From Phycisphaerae bacterium (GTDB taxonomy: Bacteria > Planctomycetota > Phycisphaerae > UBA1845 > PWPN01): DNA of 64,000 nucleotides. Where the stretch lies: positions 62,001-126,000 of the forward strand of contig JAGNEZ010000011.1 of assembly GCA_018003015.1 (NCBI GenBank), in the 5' to 3' direction. This document shows, one piece after another, positions 37,011 to 42,321 of this stretch; position 1 is the first letter of the stretch; every line of letters starts with the position of its first letter. The position numbers and the translations under genes are program-made. The notes beneath the pieces are model-generated. The model was not told where the DNA came from. It was given only the letters and a program-made list of their open reading frames with translations, and did not search any database.

Positions 37011-37237
37011 CTGTCGCGCTCCTCCTTGGCGGATAGCATAACTCCCGAGGTGCATACCGCAATGTCGGGGTTTGCCTGGCGGCTTGCGGCCGCGTAGCAT
37101 GTCGGCGGCAAGGAGCCTATCCCCCTCGGCCCGACACCCAGGTGTCCCGCATCGGTCCTTGCTGGCGAGACGCCCGTGCCACACTTATGGGGACACGTTC
37201 TATGTGCTGTTCAAATGCCCTATCGAGAGGTGACGTC

Positions 37238-38929
37238 ATGCCAGGCCGGTTGTACCTTACCCGAGTCGCCCTTGTGGTCATGGGTTTCGTTTCCGGTGCC
37301 GCTCTGGCCGAGCCACCCAAGCTGGAGGTCTGGCCGGTGGACCCGCTGGTGAAGGTGTTTCGCGACGGGCGTCCGCTTCAGCCCGGCGAAGCCACGACGG
37401 AGGTCGCCCGGGGCGAATACGCCAGCCTCCAGGTCGTGGCCCGCTGCGAGAAGGCCCTCCAAGGCTTGCGTGCGATGCTCGATCCGCTCACCCCGGAGGG
37501 TGGCAAGGGCGGCTCATTGGCAATCGGCTCGATTCGTTTCGTCGGCTACGTGCCCGTGGACCGGCCGATGCAGACACCCTCCAAAGACCAGCTGCGCAAG
37601 CCGCCGGCCGACTACCCGGATCCGCTTCTCGAGCGGGCGGAAATCGACGTCGAGGCAGGCCAGGCCCAACCCATCTGGTTGACGATCCCGGTCAAGATGG
37701 ATACGGAGCCGGGGCTCTATCGGGGTACGCTCAGAATCACGGCATCCGCAGACGGGCAGAGCGCGTCCGCGAGCGCGCCGGTGGCGGTGATGGTGCACAA
37801 GGCGACGGTCGGGCGTTCGCGGTTGTGGGTGACGAACTGGTTCCAGATGACCTCGGCGCACATGAAGAGCAAGCCCGGGACCGATACGCCGGCCTATTGG
37901 GAATTGCTGCGCCGCTATGCCCGCAACATGGCCGCTCATCGTCAGAACGCGGCCCTGATCGCCCCGTTGTCATCGGCGGCCTACAAGGTCGGCGCGGATG
38001 GGAAGCTCGAGGCCGACTTCACCCCATTCGATCGTTGGGTGGAGATCTTCATCCAGGAGGGCGTGATCGGCCGGATCGAGGGCGGGCACATCGGCGGTCG
38101 GGTCGGCGGATGGGATTCACAGTTCGTCGTCCAGATCCGGCAGGTGAAGGACGGCAAGGTGACGTCCGCCTCGGTCGATCCCAAGAGTCCGGAGGCCGAG
38201 ACGTTCTACGCATGGTACTTCCCGACCTTGCTCAAGCACCTGGAGGAGAAGGGCTGGCTGGACCGGTACGTTCAGCATCTGGCCGACGAGCCCATTCCCG
38301 GCAACATCGAGAGCTACCGCGCCATGGCCGCCCTCGTTCGCAAGCATGCCCCCAGGCTCAAGACCATCGAAGCCTGCCACACCAAGGACCTCGTGGGAGC
38401 GATCGACATCTGGGTTCCCCAGCTCAACTTCTATCACCAGGACTACAAGCACTACACCCAGCGGCAGAAGGCCGGCGATGAGGTCTGGTTCTACACCTGC
38501 GTCTTCCCGCAAGGCGAATACGCCAACCGGTTCATCGAGCAGCCGCTGATCAAGACCCGACTGCTGCACTGGATCAACTACCGCTATGGCGCGACGGGAT
38601 ACCTGCACTGGGGCTACAACTGGTGGACGGATCAGGATCCGTTCAAGATGACGACTCGTCCCCACGGCGGACCGGAGTACTTGCCGGCGGGCGACGCCTG
38701 GATCGTCTATCCGGGAGCCGACGGCCCGCTGGACTCCCTCCGCTTCGAGGCCATGCGCGACGGCATCGCCGACCACGAGTTGCTCAGCATGCTGGGTGAG
38801 CGCGACGCCGGAGCGGCGGAGAAGCTGGTCGGTACGCACGTCCTGGCCTTCGATCGCTACGATTGTGACGCGGCCACCTTCCGGGCCACGAGGCACGCGT
38901 TGCTCGAGCAGCTCGACCAGGCCCGCTGA
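37238..38929 (+). CDS. Secreted DUF4091 / GH123-like protein
   Basis: A 563-residue exported protein. The signal peptide ends near FVSGAALAE. An N-terminal Ig-like domain (LEVWPVDPLVKVFRDGR ... PVAVMVHKATV, about 30-200) is followed by a DUF4091 catalytic barrel with WFQMTSAHMKS, the acidic pair Asp350-Glu351 in HLADEPIPGN and WGYNWWTDQDPF. The Asp-Glu pair matches the substrate-assisted site of GH123 beta-N-acetylgalactosaminidases. A glycan-cleaving role is likely but unproven. The start at 37238 has GAGAGG upstream. It is divergent from the sugar ABC cluster and may share its regulation. Confidence 0.85.
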   Translation: MPGRLYLTRVALVVMGFVSGAALAEPPKLEVWPVDPLVKVFRDGRPLQPGEATTEVARGEYASLQVVARCEKALQGLRAMLDPLTPEGGKGGSLAIGSIRFVGYVPVDRPMQTPSKDQLRKPPADYPDPLLERAEIDVEAGQAQPIWLTIPVKMDTEPGLYRGTLRITASADGQSASASAPVAVMVHKATVGRSRLWVTNWFQMTSAHMKSKPGTDTPAYWELLRRYARNMAAHRQNAALIAPLSSAAYKVGADGKLEADFTPFDRWVEIFIQEGVIGRIEGGHIGGRVGGWDSQFVVQIRQVKDGKVTSASVDPKSPEAETFYAWYFPTLLKHLEEKGWLDRYVQHLADEPIPGNIESYRAMAALVRKHAPRLKTIEACHTKDLVGAIDIWVPQLNFYHQDYKHYTQRQKAGDEVWFYTCVFPQGEYANRFIEQPLIKTRLLHWINYRYGATGYLHWGYNWWTDQDPFKMTTRPHGGPEYLPAGDAWIVYPGADGPLDSLRFEAMRDGIADHELLSMLGERDAGAAEKLVGTHVLAFDRYDCDAATFRATRHALLEQLDQAR

Positions 38930-38936
38930 CAAGGCC

Positions 38937-39110
38937 CTACTTGAACACGAATCACACTTCCGCGTCAACCATCCGTGGAACCTCGACGTCGTTCAGGAAC
39001 GCCGAGCCTCCCTCGAAGTGGTGGGAGTCGAGCAGATTGCGGACGCCCACCGCAATCGAGGCCTGCTTCTTTCAGAATTCACACTCGCTGCCGCCGATCG
39101 TCTGGCACTC
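38937..39110 (-). pseudogene. Decayed duplicate of the TonB-receptor 3' end
   Basis: On the minus strand, starting 38 bases after the receptor stop, the sequence repeats the last ~45 codons of the receptor. It can be read as GVRNLLDSHHFEGGSAFLNDV (intact copy GVRNLLDPDHPEGSTAFSNH), VPRMVDAEV and FVFK, with a stop at the Trp codon (TGA for TGG) and another TGA near the end. The same terminal FK-stop is kept at 38937. It looks like a tandem partial duplication that has decayed. Confidence 0.75.
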
Positions 39111-39146
39111 TCTCTCGGCACAAGGCTCGGTCGTGGGGCATCCCTT

Positions 39147-41165
39147 CTACTTGAAGACCAGCCGTACCTCCGCGTACACCATGCGCGGGGCCTCCCCGTG
39201 ATTCGAGAACGCCGTGCTTCCCTCTGGGTGGTCGGGGTCGAGCAGGTTGCGCACGCCCACGGCCACCGAGCCTCGGTCTTTCCAGAACTCGTATTCCCCG
39301 CGCAAGTCGAGCCGGAAGTAGGAGTCAAAACTCTGGCGGAACTGGGGAAACAGCGGGCTTACCGCTGAGACCGAATCGACGTAGTAGAGATGGGCGGAGA
39401 GGTGCACTCGATCGAGCGGGCTGTATCGCGTGCCGACCATGAACTTATGGCGGGGCTGACTGATCTCGTCGATGTAAGCCCCGCGGTATGAACCGTTGGT
39501 GTCGAACCGCTCGAAGGTGTAGTTGCCCAGCAGCGTCAGCTGCGGGTTGACGGGGTACCGGGCATCCAGCTCGGCCCCATAGGTCCAGCCTCGGACACCG
39601 TTCTCGAAGTACTCCTGCAGCAGGCCGGGCGGGCCGGGGCGCAGATGACCAATGTACATGTTGTCGGTCTGATTGCAGAACAGGTTGGCGTTGGTCTGGA
39701 GCCGCTTGAAGAACTCGCCTCGATAGCCCAGTTCATAGGCGATGACCTGTTCGGCGTCGACGTCCTGGTCGGACGTCATGTGAGCTAGCCCGCCGAGCAT
39801 CGGTATTTGCATGAACCGGATGCCCAACGGCGGCATCTGGAAGGCCCGGGCCACCGCCGCGTAGACGAAGGAGGTATCCGAGAGCTCGCGGGACAGGGCC
39901 ACGCGCCCGCTGGGCTCGAACCCGCCATAGAATTCGTAGTCGATCCTGGCGCCCAGATCGAGCCTCCACCGGGGGGCAAACTGCCATTCGTCGTTGACGT
40001 ACAAGCCGATGATCGCCGTGGAGGCGAAATCCTTGCTCATCAGATAGGGGTCCGAGTTGGAGGCATCAAGTAGGTCCGTTCGGGTGTCGAGCCCCCAGGT
40101 GAGCGTGTGGCCGTCCCGGTTCTTGATCGTGTCAGTGAATTGAAGGGCAATCTGCTGATAGCGGTAGTCCACCGAGCGGGTGCCGTGGCACGCGTAGTAG
40201 TCGTTGACGTAGGCGTTCAGGGCGAATTGGTTGTCCGGGGCAACCTGGTGTTCCCACTTGCCGAGAATGAAGGAAGCCTGAGCCGTGGGATTCTTGGAGC
40301 TGAAGAGCTTGGCCAGCGGCGCCACCGAAACGCCGCCGTCCGTCAGCCCGTGTCCGCCGGAAAGGGTGATCTTGTCGGCCGGCCCGGCGTCGTAGATCGC
40401 GTGCACCCCGGAACGTCCGATCTTGAGGTCGTCCTCCAGGCCGGCCAGGAGCGAGCCGCCGCGACGGAAACCATCGCTGCCTTCATATTCGCCGGAAACG
40501 CGCAGCCGAAGCTTGTGGTCGGAGAAACCGTACCCGAGGTGTTCCTTCTGAGCACCGCGCGAACCGCCGCCTCCGGTCACCGTCAGCCCTTGCTGCTCGG
40601 CAGGATCCTTGGTGATGATGTTGATCACCCCGTAGACCGCGTTGGCTCCCCAGGTCACGCCGCCTGGGCCGCGGATGATCTCGATTCGAGCGATGTCCTC
40701 AAGCTGGAACGGCCAGTTGCCCCACAGCGTTCCTCCGAAGAGCGTGTCAAACACCTGGCGACCGTCCACCAGTACCAGCGTCTTTCGGGCGAGAGCGCCT
40801 TGCCCTCCGCGGGGTGACACGGCCGCGATGTTGTAGGTGATGTCGGCCACATCGACACCGGCGGCCAGCCGCAGCGCGTCCGGGACGTTTCGGGCCCCCG
40901 AGGCTCGGATGTCCTCGGCGGTAATGATCGTCGCGGCAAACGGGAGGGTGTTGATCTTCTGTTCATGCCTCGATGCGGTCACGACGATAGGGACTTCCAG
41001 GGTGAGCAGGTCGATGTCGTCGGTGGTGAACTCATTCCCGGGGGCGCTGGCCGGCTGACTGGCCGCCGGGGCAGCGGAACCGTGCGTCAAGGTCTCGTTT
41101 CCGCTCGTTTGGCTGGCAGATCCGCAGATCAGGGTAAGAAAGAAGGCTGTGCGTGTCATCAGCAT
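39147..41165 (-). CDS. TonB-dependent outer-membrane receptor
   Basis: A 672-residue receptor. After a signal peptide there is a TonB-box-like segment followed by a plug domain (VVTASRHEQKINTLPFAATIITAEDI, ARIEIIRGPGGVTWGANAVYGVINIITK) and a 22-strand barrel ending in EVRLVFK, with the C-terminal aromatic-rich strand of the family. It is closest in motifs to siderophore/cobalamin and vibriobactin-type receptors, but the substrate is unknown. The start at 41165 follows a GTGGAG; an upstream extension to 41273 is unlikely. The ABC_sub_bind protein gene lies 94 bases upstream and the histidine kinase gene is divergent from that. Confidence 0.92.
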   Translation of the reverse strand: MLMTRTAFFLTLICGSASQTSGNETLTHGSAAPAASQPASAPGNEFTTDDIDLLTLEVPIVVTASRHEQKINTLPFAATIITAEDIRASGARNVPDALRLAAGVDVADITYNIAAVSPRGGQGALARKTLVLVDGRQVFDTLFGGTLWGNWPFQLEDIARIEIIRGPGGVTWGANAVYGVINIITKDPAEQQGLTVTGGGGSRGAQKEHLGYGFSDHKLRLRVSGEYEGSDGFRRGGSLLAGLEDDLKIGRSGVHAIYDAGPADKITLSGGHGLTDGGVSVAPLAKLFSSKNPTAQASFILGKWEHQVAPDNQFALNAYVNDYYACHGTRSVDYRYQQIALQFTDTIKNRDGHTLTWGLDTRTDLLDASNSDPYLMSKDFASTAIIGLYVNDEWQFAPRWRLDLGARIDYEFYGGFEPSGRVALSRELSDTSFVYAAVARAFQMPPLGIRFMQIPMLGGLAHMTSDQDVDAEQVIAYELGYRGEFFKRLQTNANLFCNQTDNMYIGHLRPGPPGLLQEYFENGVRGWTYGAELDARYPVNPQLTLLGNYTFERFDTNGSYRGAYIDEISQPRHKFMVGTRYSPLDRVHLSAHLYYVDSVSAVSPLFPQFRQSFDSYFRLDLRGEYEFWKDRGSVAVGVRNLLDPDHPEGSTAFSNHGEAPRMVYAEVRLVFK

Positions 41166-41259: not shown

Positions 41260-42321
41260 TTACTCGTTGCCATAGCGAATCGTCGTCTCGTTCAGGACCG
41301 GGCCAGGAATCGTGAGGCCGATCATGCTGGCCGTACGCTCGTTGACGGCTTTCTGGATCTGGTCGGGATACTGCAGACCGATCTTGGACGGCGCCTCACC
41401 AGCAAGGACGCGCATCGCGACACGGGCCGTCTGCTGACCAATTGACTCGTAACTGGTGTAGCAGCCGCCCAGTGCGCCGCTCTTGACGAAGTTCTCGGAG
41501 AACGCCCAGACCGCCTTCTTCTGCCTCAAACCCCACAACAAGGCGGGTCTGACGGTATCCTTGGTATAAACCTGGGCGTCCGCGATCATCAGCAGTGCAT
41601 CGCAGTTCCTGCGAGTGAGCTCCTCGATGCCCTTGGCGAACTCGTCTCTGGAGGTCTCGATGAGGGCGATGCTGAGACTGGTCTCGGTGCCGGCCCGATG
41701 GATGGCCTCCGCCGTTCGCTTGGACCGGAGACTGTACAGGACCCCCACGCTCCGGACTTGGGGCTGAACCTTGCCGATCCACTGGAGCTGGGTTCTGGGC
41801 AGGACGTCCGTGGTCACACCCGCAACCCGGGAGTAGTGTGTGTTGCTCCTCTCGGTCATGGGGAAATCAGAGGCGTTGGTGATCATGCCGTAGACCACAG
41901 GAACAGCCTTGATGTTCTCCAGGGCCGCCGAGGTAGCCTGCTCGCCAATCGTGATAATCACGCTCGGCCTGACTCCTTCCACCCGCTTGAGGACATCGAA
42001 GAGGTCGGAACTGGCCGCCGGGGGAGCCCCGGGTTGAGACGCGGTTCCGGTGGTGACGGATGGGCCCTGACGAGGCAATTCGTACAGTTTGACTTCATGC
42101 CCCTTGTCCCCGAGGGTCTTCTCCGCAGCGATGGCCGCAGACTTGTAGGCGTCGTGCGGGGCCAGCAGAATCGCGATGGAAGCCGCCTCGACCTTGGCCT
42201 GGGCGAGTGCGATCGTCCCAAGGGTCATCGCAAGGGAGAGGATCCCGCAGGTGAGGCGAGACTGTCTCGGGGACAGGATGTGGACTTGTGGACCGCTCGT
42301 CGCCATCAGGGCATTCCGCAC
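41260..42321 (-). CDS. ABC_sub_bind (PF04392)-type periplasmic protein
   Basis: A 353-residue protein of the ABC_sub_bind (TrpX-like) family, a periplasmic-binding fold. After a signal segment (GILSLAMTLGTIALAQAKVEA) come IAILLAPHDAYKSAAIAAEKTL, VIITIGEQATSAAL, VPVVYGMITNASDFP, GVTTDVLPRTQLQWI and LLMIADAQVYTKDTV. In other genomes these proteins bind amino acids or serve as sensor inputs. It starts at GTG 42321 behind GGGGACATAA. Directly upstream of the TonB receptor on the same strand, it probably belongs to the same operon and may deliver the imported compound or inform the kinase. Confidence 0.85.
   Translation of the reverse strand: MRNALMATSGPQVHILSPRQSRLTCGILSLAMTLGTIALAQAKVEAASIAILLAPHDAYKSAAIAAEKTLGDKGHEVKLYELPRQGPSVTTGTASQPGAPPAASSDLFDVLKRVEGVRPSVIITIGEQATSAALENIKAVPVVYGMITNASDFPMTERSNTHYSRVAGVTTDVLPRTQLQWIGKVQPQVRSVGVLYSLRSKRTAEAIHRAGTETSLSIALIETSRDEFAKGIEELTRRNCDALLMIADAQVYTKDTVRPALLWGLRQKKAVWAFSENFVKSGALGGCYTSYESIGQQTARVAMRVLAGEAPSKIGLQYPDQIQKAVNERTASMIGLTIPGPVLNETTIRYGNE

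Follow-up and report, generated by a model that had tools for sequence, protein, structure and literature searches.

The decayed 3' end of a former tandem copy very probably lies behind an intact TonB-dependent receptor gene in a Phycisphaerae bacterium

Pseudogene remnants of tandem duplicates, which in bacteria reflect gene birth and death in arrays, lie next to the parent gene, on the same strand and in register with its end, and are marked by internal stops, truncation and absence from a sister genome. A second kind of partial copy, situated near an expressed surface-protein gene, is the silent donor cassette of antigenic variation, as in pilS or vlsE. For the TonB-dependent receptor family, defined by the plug (PF07715) and β-barrel (PF00593) domains, a literature search on tail remnants returned nothing. 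Here we describe a remnant of this kind within a window of 64,000 nucleotides (the whole stretch of DNA analysed) from a Phycisphaerae bacterium. Judged on sequence comparison, it is very probably the leftover of a second tandem receptor gene, which would have been functional for a long time and truncated and decayed later. It shows no difference of substance from the tandem-duplicate remnants, the piece kept here being the 3' end.

The features of the locus are listed in the table below. The ABC transporter gene lies upstream of the receptor and overlaps its start, and the GH123 gene, which converges on the receptor from the other side, marks a flank held in common with a genome of the same genus, where it is 95% identical (locus L033). 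A genome-wide protein-versus-DNA search found a single full-length receptor copy in the source genome; the tail of this 708-residue protein reads GEYEFWKDRGSVAVGVRNLLDPDHPEGSTAFSNHGEAPRMVYAEVRLVFK* in translation.

Features of the receptor locus (positions in the window)
Feature	Position	Strand	Support
Glycoside hydrolase family 123 (GH123) gene, convergent	37142..38929	+	PF13320 (3.8e-57)
Pseudogene remnant, last ~51 codons of a probable second receptor copy; two in-frame TGA; ends FVFK-stop	38937..39091	-	72% identity to 39147-39301
Non-homologous spacer, receptor stop to remnant	39092..39146	-	No match beyond chance
Intact TonB-dependent receptor, 708 aa	39147..41273	-	Pfam Plug PF07715 (1.3e-16) and TonB_dep_Rec_b-barrel PF00593 (2.7e-30)
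ABC transporter substrate-binding protein	41260..42321	-	PF04392 (5.5e-21)

A repeat search aligned the remnant with the end of the receptor gene without gaps and in register (111/155 nt), the two copies being spaced exactly 210 bases apart. The local alignment score of 101 compares with 31 for the best of 2000 base shuffles, and a tblastn-type search with the receptor recovered the remnant at E 1.1e-9, with 62% amino acid identity and both TGA codons. Its translation reads SECEF*KKQASIAVGVRNLLDSHHFEGGSAFLNDVEVPRMVDAEV*FVFK*, in which the two in-frame TGA stand opposite receptor residues Trp and Arg and the terminal FK-stop is that of the receptor itself. A preliminary description of this DNA had proposed that the 3' end of the receptor is repeated here as a decayed tandem copy, with two stops on the minus strand, SHHFEGGS in place of PDHPEGST and a common FK-stop, all of which we confirm. 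The repeat it had put at ~45 codons is present and extends over ~51. The interval it had given, 38937-39146, is homologous to the receptor as far as 39091; for the 55 bases that follow, no receptor similarity was found (a score equalled by 78% of shuffles), nor any match beyond chance to any other fetched locus. The idea that this spacer is the leftover 5' end of the second copy was discarded, as it has no similarity to the receptor. By homology, the remnant corresponds to the final ~50 barrel residues (receptor residues ~659-708 of 708, or ~7% of the protein), and the match does not extend to the plug domain or a complete barrel. Lacking both and interrupted by two stops, it differs from members of the receptor family and, as read from its translation, would be unable to make a receptor.

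The age of the remnant was gauged against one other genome of the same genus, compared at locus L003/L033, which is the same locus as L084 (JAKLEZ010000011.1, a Planctomycetota MAG). Rough estimates from 48 usable codons, in which a dS near 1 is imprecise, gave dS 1.24 and dN 0.215 between remnant and receptor and dS 0.95 and dN 0.22 between remnant and same-genus receptor, compared with dS 0.197 and dN 0.026 between the two orthologous receptors. The remnant-receptor dS is thus five to six times that between the orthologs, so the duplication predates the separation of the same-genus genomes several-fold, and a recent duplication of the tail was rejected on this ground. Since the divergence predates the split, the remnant would derive from the end of a different and older copy of the gene, and would be neither a fresh duplicate nor a displaced end of the present receptor.

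The divergence is also of a coding type. The dN/dS between the remnant and the receptors is about 0.17-0.23, and mismatches between remnant and receptor fall at third, first and second codon positions in the proportion 24/13/7. If the remnant had been released from selection ever since the duplication, its own branch would show dN approaching dS and far more amino acid change than is seen, which indicates that most of the divergence accumulated while both copies coded and that decay came later; the remnant thus evolved as coding sequence in the past. These data bear on the possibility that only the 3' end of the receptor was duplicated in tandem and that a non-coding copy has drifted ever since. 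Although only the 3' end is present and the spacer contains nothing recognisable as the 5' part of a second copy, neither the codon-position bias nor a dN well under dS fits a copy that never coded, and the duplication is older than the genus split, several-fold in dS; we regard this account as unlikely.

In the same-genus genome, whose receptor is 95% identical to that of the source genome, the 210 bp are missing, and the receptor stop joins directly the flank that is found here after the remnant stop (7/120 nt differ between the two flanks). Given a duplication older than the split, loss in that genome is the simplest reading. Gain of the remnant by horizontal transfer after the split would likewise agree with its absence from the one same-genus genome compared, but a tandem copy is expected to lie where the remnant does, right behind the homologous gene and in register up to the same stop; furthermore, the tails nearest to the remnant by path in a DNA tree are those of the receptor pair, and the genomes of the order hold no close match to it, the best outside the pair being 76% over 129 nt. 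Such a transfer has next to no probability. As for how a tandem copy might have been lost from the same-genus genome, crossing-over between the two tails would be a fair guess, for which the sequence evidence is weak. At the 44 positions of the last 155 nt that differ between receptor and remnant, that genome is receptor-like at 36 and remnant-like at 3. Its receptor differs from the source receptor at four positions in the last 21 nt, two of them remnant-like (P 0.03, post hoc), and similar clusters of differences also occur elsewhere in the receptor gene. As proof of such a crossover, the idea of a chimeric tail in that genome was therefore set aside.

The residue pattern places the remnant on the same time scale. 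When compared with 56 other family tails from the order, the remnant carries the family-majority residue at several sites whereas the receptor carries a rare one: L (35 of the 56) against S (0), D (30) against H (0), V (44) against A (2), A (49) against G (1) and G (31) against S (4). Other residues of the remnant are foreign to the family and were read as decay, namely the stops at W and R, D at Y/F and S at A/G. The same-genus receptor, which is identical to the source receptor over its last 65 residues, carries the same rare residues, which indicates that the remnant split off before the receptor gained them. In the DNA tree of tails the remnant forms an outer branch to the receptor pair with moderate support (93/70, not starred); in a protein tree of 50 columns, too short to resolve the remnant, the remnant and the two receptors were not grouped, and such a group was not rejected (p-AU 0.22).

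The preliminary description had gone on to suggest replacement or shuffling of the receptor's C-terminus, and had asked whether the fragment is its ancestral end. Under such a replacement the remnant would be the receptor's former end, displaced by recombination with another paralogue, and the several family-consensus residues that it retains and the present receptor tail lacks would be accounted for. We consider this most improbable. The receptor tail and the remnant are equally similar to other family tails (mean identity 59.3% and 59.0%), and in the DNA tree the intact tail sits in its expected family neighbourhood, in a weakly supported group with the tail of same-family genome G008 and the remnant. 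The same-genus ortholog also has a tail with the same amino acid sequence, and the fragment split from the receptor long before the two genomes parted, which speaks against its being the ancestral end. The preliminary interpretation is in this sense partly supported.

The reading that we favour, an old second copy, can be set out as a series of steps. An ancestor of this planctomycete lineage would have had at least two tandem receptor genes, A followed by B, and copy B would have remained for a long time under protein-level selection alongside A. Copy B would then have lost roughly its first 93% and decayed, acquiring two stops and off-family residues, so that its last ~51 codons were left, flanked by A and the convergent GH123 gene; in the same-genus relative the remainder of B would have been removed entirely. 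That a full-length copy B once stood at this spot, and the route by which it was deleted, we infer.

Full-length tandem receptor arrays of two and three genes are found in several genomes of the order (G005, G053, G058, G068, G078, G085 and G103), receptor copies with stops in G053, G076 and G093, and tail-only or internally deleted copies in G058, G068 and G079. Among the genomes compared, many of them fragmented draft or metagenome assemblies, none was close enough to reveal copy B intact at this very locus. Tandem growth and loss appear to be the normal life of this receptor gene in the order. It is very unlikely, in our estimation, that the conserved tail serves as a handle for recombination, through which arrays grow, shrink and exchange ends, and which would explain the recurrence of tail-only and internally deleted copies.

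Several individual copies may be recorded here. A full-length tandem copy at L038 3165-5150 (G053:C11) has two in-frame TGA and adjoins an intact copy, and perhaps represents an earlier stage of the same decay. At L071 5665-6540 (G079:C319), a 291-aa open frame runs from the receptor N-terminus and plug (residues ~71-233) straight into the last 40 residues without a change of frame; the entire intervening barrel is missing, either through internal deletion or as an assembly artefact. At L039 8887-8585, on the minus strand (G058:C153), a short N-terminal stretch continues in frame into a receptor tail, immediately behind an ABC substrate-binding protein gene and upstream of two full-length tandem receptors. 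At L068 2778-2617, also on the minus strand (G068:C307), a tail-only copy lies in a 137-aa frame, past an unrelated open frame and downstream of two tandem receptors.

A regulatory role for the remnant was considered and dismissed: no promoter-like or terminator-like site was found in 38700-39400, and there is no unusual RNA fold, the folding energy equalling that of shuffles (z -0.04). Most likely the remnant does nothing now. From the silent donor cassettes, which it resembles as a partial surface-protein gene copy near the expressed gene, it differs in being single and decayed with no clear sign of exchange with that gene, whose encoded tail has the same amino acid sequence in both genomes of the genus. 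When held against tandem-duplicate pseudogenes, it has the homology, the broken and truncated frame, the signs of a coding past and the dispensability expected of them, the last seen in its absence from the same-genus genome. The remnant is real and well explained, and is a case of ordinary gene decay of a known kind. For annotation, 38937-39091 is a pseudogene remnant, neither a gene nor evidence of receptor shuffling. While of little import beyond the locus, it is an example of outer-membrane receptor turnover in uncultured planctomycetes, and would record that the receptor, now single here, once belonged to a tandem pair, as it still does in relatives.
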